NCBI GenBank assembly: GCA_009779925.1
Contig: WRAZ01000005.1
Span: 1-64,000, forward strand
DNA length: 64,000 nucleotides
Source: Chitinivibrionia bacterium
GTDB lineage: Bacteria > Fibrobacterota > Chitinivibrionia > Chitinivibrionales > Chitinivibrionaceae
Direction: 5' to 3'
Part shown: in pieces, positions 4,267-32,411 of the stretch
Layout: each line of letters starts with the position of its first letter
Position numbering within the stretch: position 1 is the stretch's first letter
Notes under the pieces: model-generated
The model's database searches: none
What the model saw: the letters and a program-made list of their open reading frames with translations, nothing else
What the model was told of the DNA's origin: nothing
Made by a program: the position numbers and the translations under genes

Positions 4267-5100
4267 TTACTGTATAGGCACCACTATCGTTTTCAAAAGC
4301 CCTAAAATTCTGGAAACCATAAACAGGAAACTATATTTTGTTGGAGATTTCAGGTATATCACGATTATGGCAAAAGATGATTTAAGGCGATTTTTTATTG
4401 TGTATGCCAAAGAAACTTTTCTTGTTACCAATGAATTATCTCTTGTTCTTCTATAATAAACGGCGGTTTTATCTGTAAATTGCATTTTCATTTTCTTGTC
4501 TGAAATTGCAAACATAAACACTACATCTTCATTGTTTTGTAATTTTTCAGGAAATCTGTGCGCTCCTATCATATCACGGGGAATTAGTTTACAGTAAGGA
4601 GTTGAAAAGTATGAGCGAGTATTAAGTACGTTTAGGTTTTTATTTTTCATTTTTTCATAAACATCGGTTATATAAAAATTTTTCTCATTTGATATATTTT
4701 CAACAAACGCCTTTATATAAGATAACGGAATTAGACCGTTTTTTGCAATATCATACAATCCTTGCAAATAATTTTCGGAAATCAAATCATCGTCGTCAAT
4801 AAAAGTTAAATATTTGCCTTTTGATTGTTCAATTCCAACGTTGCGCGCATTTGAAACTCCGGCAATATTGGTATAAATTAATTCATATTGAAAATTGCAT
4901 TGCGATAAACAATTGCTAATAAATGAGTGGTATGGCTCTTGTTCTCCGTTAAGCACTATTATAATTTCAAATTTATTTTTATCGAAACTCTGGTTGTTCA
5001 GAGACTGCAGGCACTCTAATATATAATCTTGTGGTTTATACGTTGGGATAATTACTGATATAGTAGTATTTTGACTATCGCTGTAATTGGTATTTTTCAC
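4267..5100 (-). CDS. Glycosyltransferase family 2
   Basis: A 277-residue GT2 enzyme starting TTISVIIPTYKPQ, with FEIIIVLNGE, GVSNARNVGIEQSKGKYLTFIDDDD as the metal-binding region and a hydrophobic C-terminal tail. Its start codon overlaps the stop of the upstream GT4 gene by four bases, so the two are translationally coupled. Expected to act on the same exported glycan; specificity unknown. Confidence 0.85.
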   Translation of the reverse strand: MKNTNYSDSQNTTISVIIPTYKPQDYILECLQSLNNQSFDKNKFEIIIVLNGEQEPYHSFISNCLSQCNFQYELIYTNIAGVSNARNVGIEQSKGKYLTFIDDDDLISENYLQGLYDIAKNGLIPLSYIKAFVENISNEKNFYITDVYEKMKNKNLNVLNTRSYFSTPYCKLIPRDMIGAHRFPEKLQNNEDVVFMFAISDKKMKMQFTDKTAVYYRRTRDNSLVTRKVSLAYTIKNRLKSSFAIIVIYLKSPTKYSFLFMVSRILGLLKTIVVPIQ

Positions 5101-6248
5101 AACTCTTCATACCCTTCCAGCTTTTCATTCCAAGAATACTTGGATTGCACCATTTCATATCCGGCTGCACCTATATCGTTGCGCATATTTTCGTTTTGCA
5201 TTAACGATATAACAGCATTTGCAAAATCGGTTTTTTCGTCTGTAATAACACAATTTTGGTTTGACACAAGTTCAGGAATACCTGCCGATATGCAAGATGT
5301 CAGTACTGTTGGAATGCCGCAAGCCATAGAAATTAACACTTTGTTTTGAATACCTGCAGCAATACGCAAAGGTGCAACAGATACTGCCGCGTCTTTTATC
5401 TCGTTTTCGATTGATTGAACAAATCCGCTTACTATAATATTTTTTCCGTCTGCCATATTTTGAATAAACCCAGGAGGCTCAGCGCCGATTATGTGAAACA
5501 CAGCATTTGGAATTGCTTTTTTTATTACAGGGAAAATCTCGTCTATGAAAAATTTTACAGCATCACTATTTTGCAGTGTGCGCATATTACCGACAAATAC
5601 AATCTTGTTTTTATTGTATCCTGCCGGAATTTTCGGCAAGCATTGCACTCCGCAGGCATGCACTGACACTGATTTGTAATCAAGATGTTTTATATCTTCC
5701 TTTGATACAAAAACACATTTTTTATAGGCGTTTAATGTCTGTAATTCATGTTTTTTAATACGTTCGTTTTCAATTTTATAGATAAATTTCTTTAAAGAGA
5801 TGCCTGAAGAATTACTTGTAGAGGCGTACATTTTTGAAATTAAGTCGGTTGCTTCTACAATTGAATTTTCATGTAGGCGGCAAATGTTCAGGTAAGACAC
5901 CATTCTCTGCAAATGTGAAATATATAAATCCGGTTGCTCTATTTTAATTACTTTTTTGAACACCGACAGAAACTCAAATGAGAAATAATAACCGATTTGA
6001 AGCGGCTTGTTAAAAATAAATGCGAGTATTGTATTTATGTACGCTCTGATTTTTCTGTGTTTAATATAATAAATTTTATCATAGAGTTGTTCGGATAAAT
6101 TATTTTTAATATCTTTGTTATCATAATAAGAAACTAAAATAAGTTGGTGTCCTTTACTTTTCAAGTAGCGGCATATATTATTTATACGTAAAACATCACC
6201 GCCATTCTCCGGAAACGGGAAACGAGGAGTCAGAATGCAGATTTTCAT
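5097..6248 (-). CDS. Glycosyltransferase family 4 (GT-B fold)
   Basis: A 383-residue protein with the usual two-domain layout: N-terminal MKICILTPRFPFPENGGD and a C-terminal donor domain with IVFVGNM, FHIIGAEPP, VSGFVQSIENEI, and AAGIQNKVLISMACGIPTV, the E-x7-E-like nucleotide-sugar site with a substitution. Resembles the TIGR03087-type exosortase-associated sugar transferases, but no exosortase is nearby. First gene of a two-gene minus-strand operon with the GT2 gene. Likely transfers a sugar in capsule or O-antigen assembly. Confidence 0.8.
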   Translation of the reverse strand: MKICILTPRFPFPENGGDVLRINNICRYLKSKGHQLILVSYYDNKDIKNNLSEQLYDKIYYIKHRKIRAYINTILAFIFNKPLQIGYYFSFEFLSVFKKVIKIEQPDLYISHLQRMVSYLNICRLHENSIVEATDLISKMYASTSNSSGISLKKFIYKIENERIKKHELQTLNAYKKCVFVSKEDIKHLDYKSVSVHACGVQCLPKIPAGYNKNKIVFVGNMRTLQNSDAVKFFIDEIFPVIKKAIPNAVFHIIGAEPPGFIQNMADGKNIIVSGFVQSIENEIKDAAVSVAPLRIAAGIQNKVLISMACGIPTVLTSCISAGIPELVSNQNCVITDEKTDFANAVISLMQNENMRNDIGAAGYEMVQSKYSWNEKLEGYEEL

Positions 6249-25970: not shown

Positions 25971-28916
25971 ATGAAGGCTAAAATTATGTTGGCGGCTTTA
26001 GTGTTGGCTTTATGCTCGGTGTTTTTGTTTATTACGAGTTGCAGTAGCGACGACGGCGAAGAGGCAAAAGAAGAGGGCGGATTTTCAGTAGTATTCAATT
26101 CTAACGGCGGGTCTGCCGTAAATCCCATAGTCGGTATTGCCGATGGGGCTACAATCAGCAGACCGAGCAATCCCACAAAAGCGGGACACGTATTTGTCGG
26201 TTGGCACAGAGATGCCGAATTAACCGTTGCGTGGAATTTTGCAAGGGACGTTGTCTCGCAAAACTTAGTTCTTTACGCAAAGTGGTCGCAGGGTACCACG
26301 CCTTGGCACTCGGTTATTTTCGATTTTAACGACGGCGCTTCCTCCGATTCTATCACATTTGTTGCCGATGGGTCGCTTATTACAAGACCAAGCAACCCGC
26401 AAAGAAGCGGACACGTGTTTGTCGGCTGGTTTACGGACAGGGAATTTACCACCGCGTGGAATTTTGCGGGGAATGTTGTAAGAGACGACATTACTCTTTA
26501 CGCAAGATGGGCGCAAGGAACGACTTTTCACAGGGTTTTATTTAACTTTAACGACGGCGCTACAGTGGATTCGCTGACTTATGTTGCTTCGGGGGCGCTT
26601 ATTGTAAGACCGAGAAATCCTTTAAGAAGCGGGTATATGTTTGTCGGCTGGCATATAGATGCCGAGCTTACCACGGTGTGGAATTTTGCCGCAAATACGG
26701 TAAACGAAGATATAGCGCTTTTTGCGAGATGGTCGCAGGGGGCTACTCCTTGGCATTCCATAACCTTTAATTTTAATAATGCTCCCGTTGCAGATTCTAT
26801 AGCTTTTGCCGCCGCGGGCTCGACGATAAGCGCACCTGTTGCGCCTGTAAGAGCGGGATTTACTTTTAACGGTTGGTACAGGGATGCGGCGCTTACTATT
26901 CCTTGGAATTTTACGGATGATGTTATCGGCGGAGATATTACGCTTTTTGCAAGATGGACTGAAATACAAATTGAAACTTTTACCGTGAGTTTTAATTCCA
27001 ACGGCGGGTCTGTGGTTAGTTCCGTTGTCAATATTGCAAACGGTGCGACAATAAGCGCGCCTGTTGCGCCGACGAGGAGCGGGTTTACTTTTGCAGGTTG
27101 GTATAAAGAGGTGGAATTGACTACTGCTTGGAATTTTGAGGTCGATGTTGTGAGCGAAAATACTACGCTTTTTGCAAGATGGACTGAAATACAAAATGAA
27201 ACTTTTACCGTGAGTTTCAACTCCAACGGCGGGTCTGCGGTTAGTTCCGTTGTCAATATTGCAAACGGTGCGACGATAAGCGCGCCTGTTGCGCCGACGA
27301 GAGACGGGCACGTTTTCGGCGGATGGTACAAAGACGCAGAGCTGGCTAATGCTTGGGATTTTGAAACGGACGTTGTAGAGGGAAACACTACACTGTTTGC
27401 GAGATGGCTTACCGCTCATACCATAACCTTCAATTCTAACGGTGGGTCTGCAGTTAGTTCTGTAAGCGCTCTTACCGGCACCACAATTGATAAACCGACC
27501 GACCCGACAAGAGTTGGATTTGCGTTTATGGGTTGGTATAGAGAAGCGGCGTTTACTAATGCTTGGAACTTTGAGACTAATGTTGTTGCGGCTAACACTA
27601 CACTGTTTGCAAGATGGCACGAACTTGGAACTTTGGTTTTGCCCTATAGCAATAATTTAGCTTCGGCAAACGATGTAAACGAATGGACGCTCAGCGGTGT
27701 AAACTGGGACAACGGCAACAGCGGACAGTTAATATTTGAAGCGGCGGGTTCTTTTGTTGATTTACCTTTGCTTCCGGCAGGAGTAAACGGACACGGTATA
27801 AGAATTGTAGCGAGACACGGAAACACCATTTCTTTGGAAACATCTGTCAACGGTACAACATTCTCCGCTCCTCAGGCGTTTGCCGGCGGTACCACCGTTA
27901 TGGAATCCGGTATTTTATCAATACCTAACGGAACGCGTTATATAAGATTGAGCACTAATAGCGTAAGGACTAATGAAGTCGCTCTTGTTTCGGTATTGGT
28001 AAGTAGTTTCCACACCGTGGCATTCAATTCAAATGTCGGTTCTTCTGTCGCTTCAATCGTCAATGTTTCTCGCGGTTCTATTATCAGCGAACCGGAAAAT
28101 GAGCCAATAAGAAGCGGATATACGTTTGACGGCTGGTACAGAGAGGCTGAGCTGAGCAATCTATGGAATTTTGCTACAGATCTTGTGCAGGGAAATATCA
28201 CACTGTTTGCTAAGTGGAGACCGATAAGCGGTATTGGCGGCGGCACAAACGGAGAAGCGCGGACAATAACTCGTAATGGCATTGATATAGAACTTATTTT
28301 TGTTGCCCCCGGAGTATTTACGCAGGGAGGAGCACATTTCGGACATTCGGTATCTCGCGAGGTAGTACTTACACGCGGCTTTTGGATAAGTAAATATCCG
28401 ATAACCGTGGCGCAGTATGAGGCGGTAATGAATGATAATCCGTCTAATCTTAACAATCGTCCCGTAGTAAACGTAAGTTGGTTTAACGCAGTAGATTTTG
28501 CTAGTAGAGTCGGCGGTCGCCTGCCGACGGAAGCTGAATGGGAATTTGCTGCGCGCGGCGGAAATAGGGAAGACCCATATATGTACAGCGGTAGCGACAA
28601 TATCAACGAAGTTGGTTGGGTTAGCACAAACCGTCCCTCTTCCGGCGCTCAACCTGTAGGAGGGCTACAGGCAAACGGATTGGGGATTTATGATATGAGC
28701 GGTAATGTTTGGGAATGGGTTGCGGACTGGAGTGCGTCTTTTACTTCGACATCTGTTGTTGACCCAATAGGTCCTAATAGCGGCACTATCCGCGTAGTTC
28801 GTGGTGGCAGTTGGTACTACGAGGCTTCGTTTGCTCGTGTTGCCTTTCGGAGCTTCGGCAGTCCGGACGGCAGCTGGAGCTGCAGCGGGTTCCGCTTGGT
28901 GTTTTCCGCCAATTGA
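25971..28916 (+). CDS. Surface lipoprotein: eight InlB-B/Flg_new repeats plus C-terminal FGE-sulfatase (C-type-lectin-like) domain with DGR-like variable region
   Basis: 981 residues. Lipobox ITSC (Cys24). Repeats 1-7 occupy about 38-550 (unit pattern: NSNGGSxV...AGHVFVGWxxDAELTxAWNFxxxVV...LFARW), then a jelly-roll-like insert (about 555-680), repeat 8 (680-755) and an FGE/SUMF1-type domain (about 760-981) with WISKYPITVAQYEAVM, RLPTEAEWEFAARGG, MSGNVWEWVADW, VVRGGSW and GFRLVF. The domain is of the non-catalytic lectin-like sort. Codons 949-972 are largely NNC/NNT, the fingerprint of diversity-generating mutagenesis. Likely adhesin or receptor on the outer membrane. Confidence 0.85.
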   Translation: MKAKIMLAALVLALCSVFLFITSCSSDDGEEAKEEGGFSVVFNSNGGSAVNPIVGIADGATISRPSNPTKAGHVFVGWHRDAELTVAWNFARDVVSQNLVLYAKWSQGTTPWHSVIFDFNDGASSDSITFVADGSLITRPSNPQRSGHVFVGWFTDREFTTAWNFAGNVVRDDITLYARWAQGTTFHRVLFNFNDGATVDSLTYVASGALIVRPRNPLRSGYMFVGWHIDAELTTVWNFAANTVNEDIALFARWSQGATPWHSITFNFNNAPVADSIAFAAAGSTISAPVAPVRAGFTFNGWYRDAALTIPWNFTDDVIGGDITLFARWTEIQIETFTVSFNSNGGSVVSSVVNIANGATISAPVAPTRSGFTFAGWYKEVELTTAWNFEVDVVSENTTLFARWTEIQNETFTVSFNSNGGSAVSSVVNIANGATISAPVAPTRDGHVFGGWYKDAELANAWDFETDVVEGNTTLFARWLTAHTITFNSNGGSAVSSVSALTGTTIDKPTDPTRVGFAFMGWYREAAFTNAWNFETNVVAANTTLFARWHELGTLVLPYSNNLASANDVNEWTLSGVNWDNGNSGQLIFEAAGSFVDLPLLPAGVNGHGIRIVARHGNTISLETSVNGTTFSAPQAFAGGTTVMESGILSIPNGTRYIRLSTNSVRTNEVALVSVLVSSFHTVAFNSNVGSSVASIVNVSRGSIISEPENEPIRSGYTFDGWYREAELSNLWNFATDLVQGNITLFAKWRPISGIGGGTNGEARTITRNGIDIELIFVAPGVFTQGGAHFGHSVSREVVLTRGFWISKYPITVAQYEAVMNDNPSNLNNRPVVNVSWFNAVDFASRVGGRLPTEAEWEFAARGGNREDPYMYSGSDNINEVGWVSTNRPSSGAQPVGGLQANGLGIYDMSGNVWEWVADWSASFTSTSVVDPIGPNSGTIRVVRGGSWYYEASFARVAFRSFGSPDGSWSCSGFRLVFSAN
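26940..27300 (+). repeat. Recent 225-bp tandem duplication of a B-repeat unit
   Basis: 26940-27075 and 27165-27300 are nearly identical in DNA (a few differences) at an offset of exactly 225 bp, 75 codons or one protein repeat. The other repeats are much more diverged. Confidence 0.85.
28815..28886 (+). other. Candidate DGR variable region
   Basis: Codons 949-972 between constant GGSW and GFR. Variable residues use TAC TAC, TTT, TTT, AGC TTC GGC AGT, GGC AGC, AGC TGC AGC: almost every one is NNC or NNT, as expected if AAC/AAT codons of a template repeat were randomised at their adenines. Constant codons (CGT GTT GCC, CCG GAC, GGG TTC CGC) interleave. No reverse transcriptase or template repeat is in the window. 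Confidence 0.6.
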
Positions 28917-28922
28917 AATATT

Positions 28923-28947
28923 AAGAACGGAGTTCTGTTCTTTTTTT
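28923..28947 (+). terminator. Hairpin terminator after the variable-region lipoprotein
   Basis: AAGAAC (28923-28928) pairs with GTTCTT (28937-28942), then a T run to 28947. In known DGRs a hairpin also lies just beyond the variable region, so it could serve both roles. Confidence 0.7.
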
Positions 28948-29018
28948 GAGTTGAAAAAAAATATCGGTTTCAATTAACTAATAAGAGGTTGTTAAAAACA
29001 ACAAAAAGGAGTGTTTTT

Positions 29019-29703: not shown

Positions 29704-31167
29704 ATGAGAAAAAAGGTGGTGTTGTATTTTTTTGTGCTTTGCTTGTTTCCGTTTACGGGATACGGGCAGGTGCAGACATTTATAAGAGAATACACTTATC
29801 GGATGAGTGAAGAGGACAGCCGCAGAACGGCTCGGAATAAGGCGCACGAGCAGTTGCGGGCGATGGTGCTTAGCGAAGTGGGCAGTTTGGTGCAGGCGAA
29901 TTACTCTTCCGCAATGACCGTCTCGGGTTCAAATGTTGAAGATTTGTATCGCGAAGTAATAACGATAAGCACGGTAGGCAGAGTCGGCTTGAAAGTTCTT
30001 GACGAAAGGTTCGACGAATTTACATATTGGGTAAAAGCGGAATTGACGGTCGATGTCGGCGCAATAAACGAACAACTCGACAAACTTGCAAGAGAAAACA
30101 GAGAGGTAAGTCAAAGAAAAGAGGCTCAAACTCAGCAAAATCGTCAAACAGAACAAGTTCAGGCGCAAATAACGGCTTCCGAAAGACAAATTACCGCGCT
30201 TGCAAACAGAGAAACAGCGGCACGAAACCAAAGAAACACCACGACAGCACGGCTAAACCGCTCCAGAGAAGAAAGAGACAGAGCGGACAGAGAGCACAAT
30301 AACGCATTGGCGTTTTTGAGCGCAAATCCCGCCAGCGCCCCCGCGCGAAGAGCGGTAGAAATGGCTTCCGACAGTTTTGAAGAGGCAAAAGCAAACTATG
30401 ACGAAATGTCATTGCAGGCAAAAATCGCCGATGAAGCGTGGACTGCCGCAGACAGCGAATTAAAACAGGAACGAGAGCGTTTGGCAAACCTGCGCGAGCA
30501 GTTGAGACGGCTTAATTCAGGCGAAACGTTTGAACAGATAGCCGCCCGTCCGAGCGTTCCCGCGCCTCAGCAACAACAACAAGCGTCGCCGTCTGTCGCG
30601 GATGCCCCCGCTCAACAAAGAACTGCGCAACAGGGCGGCGCGGCGGCAAACGAGGAGCGCGCGGGAATGTTTTTGCTTTCAATACGTCCCGAATTTGTTG
30701 CGGGAACATCCGTAATGAGCGCGGGCGCAACAATAGAAATCGGCGCAATTCTTAAAAACGGTTTTTATCTTACGGGAGAGATTGCGGGCGGCGCAATTTA
30801 TTACGGGGGTGGGCTTAATTTGGGCGTGTGCATTAACCGCGACGGTTTTGTAAGAAACGTTTTGGGCGTAAATGCAGGTTATCGCAACAGCGTATTAACC
30901 GCCGAATTTACGCAAAACGACAAAGTATATATATCTAAAAACGGGACAAACACGAGTTTTGGCGGCGCATTTTGGAAATTAATGTTCGGCAACGCAGGCA
31001 ATTTCGACATAAGCAACAAAATACTGTTCGGACAGCGAAACAATCCCGTTTCATTCAGAAAAAACTATAACGACGGCAGCGACGGCTTTGTTTACGAAGA
31101 GGGGCTAAACATAACTTATTCATTAAGTATCGGCTACACATTAACGAAAAGGAGACAAGCAAGATGA
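29704..31167 (+). CDS. Secreted protein: LPP20/FlgT-N-like domain, long coiled coil, C-terminal membrane beta domain
   Basis: 487 residues with a signal peptide (MRKKVVLYFFVLCLFPFTGYGQ). Residues about 25-125 (YTYRMSEEDSRRTARNKAHEQLRAMVLSEVGS...YWVKAELTVDV) resemble the LPP20/FlgT N-terminal fold. Residues 130-270 are a Gln/Arg/Glu-rich coiled coil, then a Pro/Gln linker and a C-terminal section with alternating aromatic strands (GFYLTGEIAGGAIYYGGGLNLGV) that looks like a small outer-membrane barrel. The stop overlaps the next gene by four bases. Not assigned to a named family. Confidence 0.55.
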   Translation: MRKKVVLYFFVLCLFPFTGYGQVQTFIREYTYRMSEEDSRRTARNKAHEQLRAMVLSEVGSLVQANYSSAMTVSGSNVEDLYREVITISTVGRVGLKVLDERFDEFTYWVKAELTVDVGAINEQLDKLARENREVSQRKEAQTQQNRQTEQVQAQITASERQITALANRETAARNQRNTTTARLNRSREERDRADREHNNALAFLSANPASAPARRAVEMASDSFEEAKANYDEMSLQAKIADEAWTAADSELKQERERLANLREQLRRLNSGETFEQIAARPSVPAPQQQQQASPSVADAPAQQRTAQQGGAAANEERAGMFLLSIRPEFVAGTSVMSAGATIEIGAILKNGFYLTGEIAGGAIYYGGGLNLGVCINRDGFVRNVLGVNAGYRNSVLTAEFTQNDKVYISKNGTNTSFGGAFWKLMFGNAGNFDISNKILFGQRNNPVSFRKNYNDGSDGFVYEEGLNITYSLSIGYTLTKRRQAR

Positions 31168-32411
31168 AACGGTTTATTATGCAAAAAATGAAATATTTAC
31201 TGCCCGCGTTGCTTTGCTTTTCGGCGCTTGTCGCCTGCGATTTTATCGTGATGACAAAACCTGTGGACGACGGCGGCGACAGCGGCAAAAATCCCGTTGT
31301 AAACCGCTATACGGTAAGCTTTAATTCCAACGGCGGCTCGTTTGTCGCGCCTATTAACAACGTTTTGGAGGGGACAACCGTAAGCAGACCGAGCGACCCT
31401 GCAAGAGACGGTTTTAATTTTAACGGCTGGTATCGCGACGAAGCATTAACAAACGCCTGGAATTTTGCAAGCGACGTTGTTTCGGCAAACATAACGCTTT
31501 ACGCAAGATGGACAGAAATACAAGGGACGGTTTTTTATACCGTGTCGTTTAATTCCAACGGCGGTTCGTCCGTAAATCCTATACAAGTAGCCCAAAACAC
31601 AACCGTAAACAGACCGACCGACGACCCCACAAAAGACGGACATATTTTTGACGGCTGGTATCGCGACGAAGCATTAACAAACGCTTGGATTTTCGCAAGC
31701 GACGTTATCACGGCAAACACAACGCTTTTCGCAAAATGGAGAATTGACGACAGAATAGAAGACAACGAAAGCGGAAGAATAAGAATGTTCGGCGACATAG
31801 AAGCGGTATTTGTAAAAGCGGGAAGTTTCACAACCGTCGGCGGAACAAAAATAACGCTGACACAGGGCTTTTACATAAGCAAATATCCTATAACGCAGGC
31901 GCAATTTCAGGCGAAAATGGGCTTTAACCCGTCCGCGCCTACAATAGGCAACAACTTACCCGTGGTAGGCATTACTTGGAGCCACGCAAACACATTCGCC
32001 GCAAATGTCGGCGGCTTTTTACCCACCGAAGCGCAATGGGAATTTGCGGCGCGCGGCGGCAACAAAAGCAATAACTACACATACAGCGGCGGCAACAACT
32101 TAAATTCGGTAGGCTGGTACATCGATAACAGCAATAGTATCCTGCAAGCCGTAGGACAAAAATCGTCCAACGAAATAGGTATTCACGATATGAGCGGCAA
32201 CGTCTGGGAATGGACGGCGGACTGGTACCAAAGCGGCTACCCGAGCAGTCAAACCGACCCGACAGGCGCTTCCGACGGCAATGAAAGGGTGTTCAAAGGC
32301 GGTAGCTTTATGCAAGGCGCCGAAGACAGCCAAATAAGCTCCCGCGACGGCAACATCCCAGCCAGCGGCTTCCCGATGGTAGGGTTTAGGGTAGCGTTTT
32401 CGGAAAATTAA
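31164..32411 (+). CDS. Surface lipoprotein: two InlB-B repeats plus FGE-sulfatase domain
   Basis: 415 residues. Lipobox LVAC (about Cys24). Two B-repeats (about 50-193) with NSNGGSxV and GWYRDEALTNAW, then an FGE/SUMF1 domain (about 200-415) with ISKYPITQAQFQAKM, LPTEAQWEFAARGG, MSGNVWEWTADW, KGGSF and VGFRVAF. A smaller relative of the 981-residue protein. Coupled to the coiled-coil gene by a four-base overlap, suggesting the products work as one surface complex. No sign of the codon skew seen in the larger relative's variable region. Confidence 0.85.
   Translation: MKRFIMQKMKYLLPALLCFSALVACDFIVMTKPVDDGGDSGKNPVVNRYTVSFNSNGGSFVAPINNVLEGTTVSRPSDPARDGFNFNGWYRDEALTNAWNFASDVVSANITLYARWTEIQGTVFYTVSFNSNGGSSVNPIQVAQNTTVNRPTDDPTKDGHIFDGWYRDEALTNAWIFASDVITANTTLFAKWRIDDRIEDNESGRIRMFGDIEAVFVKAGSFTTVGGTKITLTQGFYISKYPITQAQFQAKMGFNPSAPTIGNNLPVVGITWSHANTFAANVGGFLPTEAQWEFAARGGNKSNNYTYSGGNNLNSVGWYIDNSNSILQAVGQKSSNEIGIHDMSGNVWEWTADWYQSGYPSSQTDPTGASDGNERVFKGGSFMQGAEDSQISSRDGNIPASGFPMVGFRVAFSEN

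Follow-up and report, generated by a model that had tools for sequence, protein, structure and literature searches.

Does the end of a long lipoprotein gene represent the variable repeat (VR) of a diversity-generating retroelement (DGR) and, if so, which reverse transcriptase (RT) and template repeat (TR) serve it? The window, by which we mean the whole 64,000-nucleotide stretch that was analyzed, is contig 5 (G000:C5) of a 2.5 Mb genome with 88 contigs and a completeness of 97.6%. A same-genus relative, the sister genome G001, belongs to the Fibrobacterota, and the host habitat type is presumably the termite gut, judging from the isolate name of this relative. The features discussed are listed in Table 1.

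Table 1. Positions of the window features and of the DGR components used for comparison (window coordinates unless a locus is named)
Feature	Position	Strand	Evidence
Target gene, 981 aa	25971..28916	+	ORF call and Pfam; lipobox from sequence
FGE-sulfatase/C-type-lectin-like domain, C-terminal	28290..28901	+	Pfam PF03781, E=3.6e-44
DGR-type VR	28800..28904	+	Frame 1 of target ORF; aligned to TR1, TR2 and sister TR
Inverted repeat AAGAAC-8 nt-GTTCTT, 3' of stop codon	28923..28942	+	Sequence and fold
Tag TTTGAGTTGAAAAA, 14-mer just after VR	28945..28958	+	Exact genome search
Neighboring Flg_new + FGE lipoprotein without VR pattern (internal negative control)	31164..32411	+	Pfam, codon test
L023 target, Flg_new + FGE lipoprotein, 784 aa	L023:3216-5570		
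L023 HRDC accessory gene	L023:5729-6328		
L023 RT ORF	L023:6328-7527 (G000:C3:102327-103523)		RVT_1, 59-61 bits
TR1, inside 3' end of L023 RT ORF	L023:7378 onward		
Inverted flank pairs	L023:7480-7530 + 5560-5610; L024:6270-6320 + 4800-4850; L117:5650-5700 + 4545-4615; also L144-L169		

The N terminus of the target protein carries a lipoprotein-like signal (MKAKIMLAALVLALCSVFLFITSC, with the lipobox read from the sequence), which marks a putative surface lipoprotein, and the protein contains eight Flg_new (Listeria-Bacteroides) repeats (Pfam PF09479). The C-terminal domain matched FGE by sequence, and also Treponema denticola TvpA (2Y3C, E=1.3e-23). The AlphaFold model of the target was mediocre (pLDDT 60.5, pTM 0.68) and served as a basis for the fold class only; in the fold search with this model, FGE structures gave the best E-value, and TvpA gave the top TM-score among the matches listed (0.69). 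The VR is placed at the end of this C-type-lectin/FGE domain, which is the target architecture of DGRs. Formylglycine-generating enzymes, which the target resembles in fold and family (PF03781), require an active-site cysteine pair. The translation of 28251-28913, however, contains a single cysteine and lacks the pair, so the domain should not be a formylglycine-generating enzyme, and an enzyme role is unlikely as judged from its sequence. Some of the eight Flg_new repeats (window 26000-28220) hardly differ in their DNA, as around 27000 and 27230, and are a possible recombination site that changes the repeat number. Strain sampling consisted of one genome per species, and no one-to-one orthologue of this gene emerged when orthologous neighborhoods were compared.

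The initial annotation had proposed a target diversified in trans by an RT located outside the window. A DGR RT was indeed present on contig 3 of the same genome, where locus L023 (3216-7527) holds a complete HRDC-type DGR consisting of an FGE lipoprotein target, an HRDC accessory gene, the RT, and the template TR1. The RT contains the YMDD motif and the DGR-type motif GLPIGNLVSQ. Compared with its own VR, TR1 showed mismatches at 14 of 27 adenines and at none of 78 other bases (p=2e-10). At L023:7378-7503, TR1 is contained in the RT ORF in a translatable frame, which could give the RT an FGE-like tail; otherwise, the template may merely be read through. A second cassette, on contig 49 (locus L024), contains a target with VR2, an HRDC gene, and the template TR2, with VR2 mismatches at 18/31 adenines and 1/74 other bases. 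From the RT ORF of this cassette (5594-6169), the catalytic core with its YMDD motif has been lost through an in-frame deletion, and the target, HRDC gene, and template are intact. Short KYKY-like repeats flank the junction of the deletion. Presumably, the cassette was served in trans by the contig 3 RT, or the RT deletion is recent.

Next, we examined the codons of the window VR. The constant blocks CGTGGTGGCAGTTGG, GCT, CGTGTTGCC, CGG, CCGGAC, TGG, and GGGTTCCGC are separated by NNY codons, which bears out the initial description of variable codons ending almost uniformly in C or T. The codons for the test were chosen beforehand as those homologous to the AAY codons of the genome's own TR2 (n=13). 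Among them, 12 were NNC or NNT (binomial p=0.0085), with GAG at 28821-28823 as the sole exception. Because 58% of the codons across the target gene end in C or T, this excess alone is only mildly unusual. The codon positions were more informative: at the 13 AAY codons, the third base was the same as in TR2 in 12 cases and positions 1 and 2 retained A in only 7 of 26 (p=1.3e-4), whereas the remaining codons showed the usual order, with agreement at 38/44 for positions 1 and 2 and 13/22 for position 3. The inverted pattern was absent from the neighboring FGE paralogue and from two FGE paralogues on contig 11. The window VR codons thus show the pattern of adenine mutagenesis, with positions 1 and 2 random and position 3 fixed, beyond chance.

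To find the template of the window VR, we compared it with both templates of the genome. Mismatches occurred at 18/27 adenines and 19/78 other bases of TR1 and at 21/31 adenines and 14/74 other bases of TR2 (adenine bias, p=2.6e-6). These non-adenine mismatches rule out TR1 and TR2 as its template, and the window VR is the product of neither. A six-frame template-peptide search of the assembly returned TR1 and TR2 only, a DNA search of the assembly gave no third template, and a genome search for the predicted inverted flank of the missing template matched only the window itself. In 168 Fibrobacterota genomes, no adenine-only template for the window VR was found, the best being TR2 with its 14 non-adenine mismatches; 80 RT loci of other taxa held no template closer than TR2, and viral contigs contained six distant RTs, which were of no help. 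The anticipated genomic template differing only at adenines was thus not recovered, and in this defining respect the window VR departs from that of a current target. The missing template is about equally likely to be unassembled or strain-variable or to have been lost, leaving the VR frozen. It would be expected to carry the constants CGTGGTGGCAGTTGG...CGTGTTGCC...CCGGAC...GGGTTCCGCTTGGTG, A-rich codons, and the 3' flank CAACTCAAAAAAAGAAC...GTTCTT.

The window gene was not the only one of its kind. Six further FGE genes without a template were found, on contigs 4, 58, 76, 77, 80, and 85, indicating that missing templates are a property of this genome. In a manual codon alignment that was verified against the loci, 79 of their 80 AAY-homologous codons were NNY. 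Their pairwise identities at codon positions 1, 2, and 3 were 0.27, 0.34, and 0.87 at these codons, compared with 0.82, 0.87, and 0.71 elsewhere, respectively. Most of the contigs that bear template-less FGE genes are 3-9 kb long, which makes an unassembled cassette plausible.

In the sister genome G001, one template was assembled (L117:5535). The VRs on contigs 57, 110, 163, and 176 of G001 differed from it at 12-19 adenines and at 0-1 other bases. Since these VRs lie off the contig of the template and match it outside adenines, several targets are written by one template. Diversification in trans, as proposed in the initial annotation, accordingly holds for the G001 targets; the window gene, whose template was not found, would be diversified in the same way. 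In the G001 template, an in-frame TAA (L117:5532-5534) immediately precedes the VR. This codon is retained in the cis target, whose protein would stop before the VR, and two remote VRs carry TTT and TGG, as if adenine mutagenesis toggled a stop codon at this site.

We also examined the sequence downstream of the window VR. The hairpin 3' of the stop codon folded only modestly better than shuffled sequences (z=-2.0, with 7/200 equally good). Its position is typical of DGR targets, but a T run alongside means that it could also be a terminator. Across the 2.5 Mb genome, the tag TTTGAGTTGAAAAA was matched exactly at five sites (contigs 4, 5 [the window], 49, 76, and 80), all within about 60 bases after FGE/VR genes, and the contig 3 VR is followed by the tag with one mismatch. 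In reverse complement, the tag core TTTGAGTTG follows TR2 (AACTCAAA for TR1). The window gene has the tag in common with targets of known template, such as the contig 49 VR, and is thereby linked to them.

Two other explanations were weighed against these results. The gene could be an ordinary FGE-domain paralogue with a variable G/S/N/Y-rich C-terminal loop, its NNY codons reflecting composition and no DGR history. The 58% share of C/T-ending codons, the occurrence of RGGSW...GFR in many FGE proteins, and the absence of a matching template from the DNA agree with this explanation; however, the codon-position conservation is inverted against TR2, a test that the paralogues without the pattern fail, the same codon signature recurs in six other genes, and the tag is common only to such targets, one of which (contig 49) has its template present. 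We consider it improbable. Still less probable is that the gene is a current target of TR1 or TR2 and that the non-adenine differences are due to noise in sequencing or assembly or to point mutations acquired later. The same RT lineage, the common TTTGAGTTG element, and the adenine-biased mismatches against both templates would fit, whereas the 14-19 non-adenine mismatches extend across the whole VR, compared with 0-1 in true pairs, and one retrohoming event would wipe them out. In addition, the inverted score of the window 3' flank against the TR1 and TR2 flanks was 6-8, at background, whereas the true pairs scored 11.5 and 25.

With a probability of about 0.87, the region at 28800-28904 is a VR that belongs to an HRDC-type (Treponema TvpA-like) DGR and lies in a remote target, and the gene that carries it is a currently template-less ("orphan") target like the six other genes. 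This reading brings together the target architecture, the complete DGR in the same genome, the VR-style codons, the target-only tag, and the trans targets of the sister genome. Retrohoming would have written the VR of the window gene, and the diversified protein would be expected to bind a ligand. In the initial annotation, the DGR-type VR, the FGE/C-type-lectin target, TvpA as the closest relative, and an RT elsewhere stood up to the analysis, and the adenine-only template did not.

The reverse-complementary tag core belongs to a wider arrangement. In L023, L024, and L117, the template is followed directly by a stretch (CAACTCAAAAG...) that is reverse-complementary to the post-VR sequence of the target (...CTTTTGAGTTG), pair-specific hairpin arms included. 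When 57 TR/VR pairs were scanned systematically, inverted flanks were found in most FGE/HRDC-clade cassettes (n=22), from Fibrobacterota to Bacteroidales, mostly with exact runs of 10-21 nt, and were not seen in more distant RT clades. The own VR flank ranked 1-3 among the clade flanks in 20 of the 22 cassettes. Hairpins 3' of VRs (PMC3240598, PMC12875486) and strand inversions of whole cassettes (PMC3521204) have been described; inverted template/target flanks were not described in the literature covered, a limited set that leaves novelty unproven. Tentatively, the inverted flank of the HRDC/FGE clade could be an address or primer-binding site, and the window gene could carry its own address (AAGAAC..GTTCTT, then TTTGAGTTG) of an unassembled template. 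In that case, the target top strand 3' of the hairpin would pair with the part of the template RNA that immediately follows the TR, and this pairing would set which template writes which of the many genomic targets. Alternatively, the inversion might flip a terminator and so spare the template RNA from premature termination. Inverted flanks offer a testable hypothesis for target choice by one RT with several templates.

Finally, we compared the system with known DGRs. In T. denticola, DGRs with an HRDC accessory act on remote FGE lipoprotein targets, and VRs that are remnants or mismatched have been reported from strains without a matching core (PMC4891356). The TvpA DGR of this species (PMC4891356, 2Y3C) is similar in its FGE/C-type-lectin lipoprotein targets, HRDC accessory, and several remote targets. 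In contrast, the host here belongs to the Fibrobacterota, the window target has eight Listeria-Bacteroides repeats, one of two cassettes has a deleted RT, and the window VR has no assembled template. Class Chitinivibrionia of the Fibrobacterota is thereby added to the hosts of TvpA/HRDC-type DGRs. Thiohalocapsa PB-PSB1 (PMC10907252) likewise has several DGR loci, degenerate loci without RT or TR, and trans action; the VRs of its DGR 7 are unmatched in the reference, with an intact RT and TR in strain variants. Its RT is of clade 5, its targets are conflict-system proteins, and its diversification was measured, whereas here diversification is predicted from sequence. In Pseudogulbenkiania sp. 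NH8B (PMC3521204), a decayed RT also lies near remote VRs, which the remaining RT was inferred to serve, but these VRs match the template perfectly outside adenines, unlike the window VR. Each genome holds about nine diversifiable FGE-domain genes, at least seven of them without an assembled template, and target families thus outlive or outnumber their templates. RT-centered DGR surveys miss remote targets by their own account (PMC8144416), and the template-less targets here show why such surveys undercount targets.

Downstream of the target, a 487-aa protein (29704-31167) is a member of a family whose partial copies number more than 15 in the genome and several in the sister genome, the common part being the C-terminal ~165 aa.
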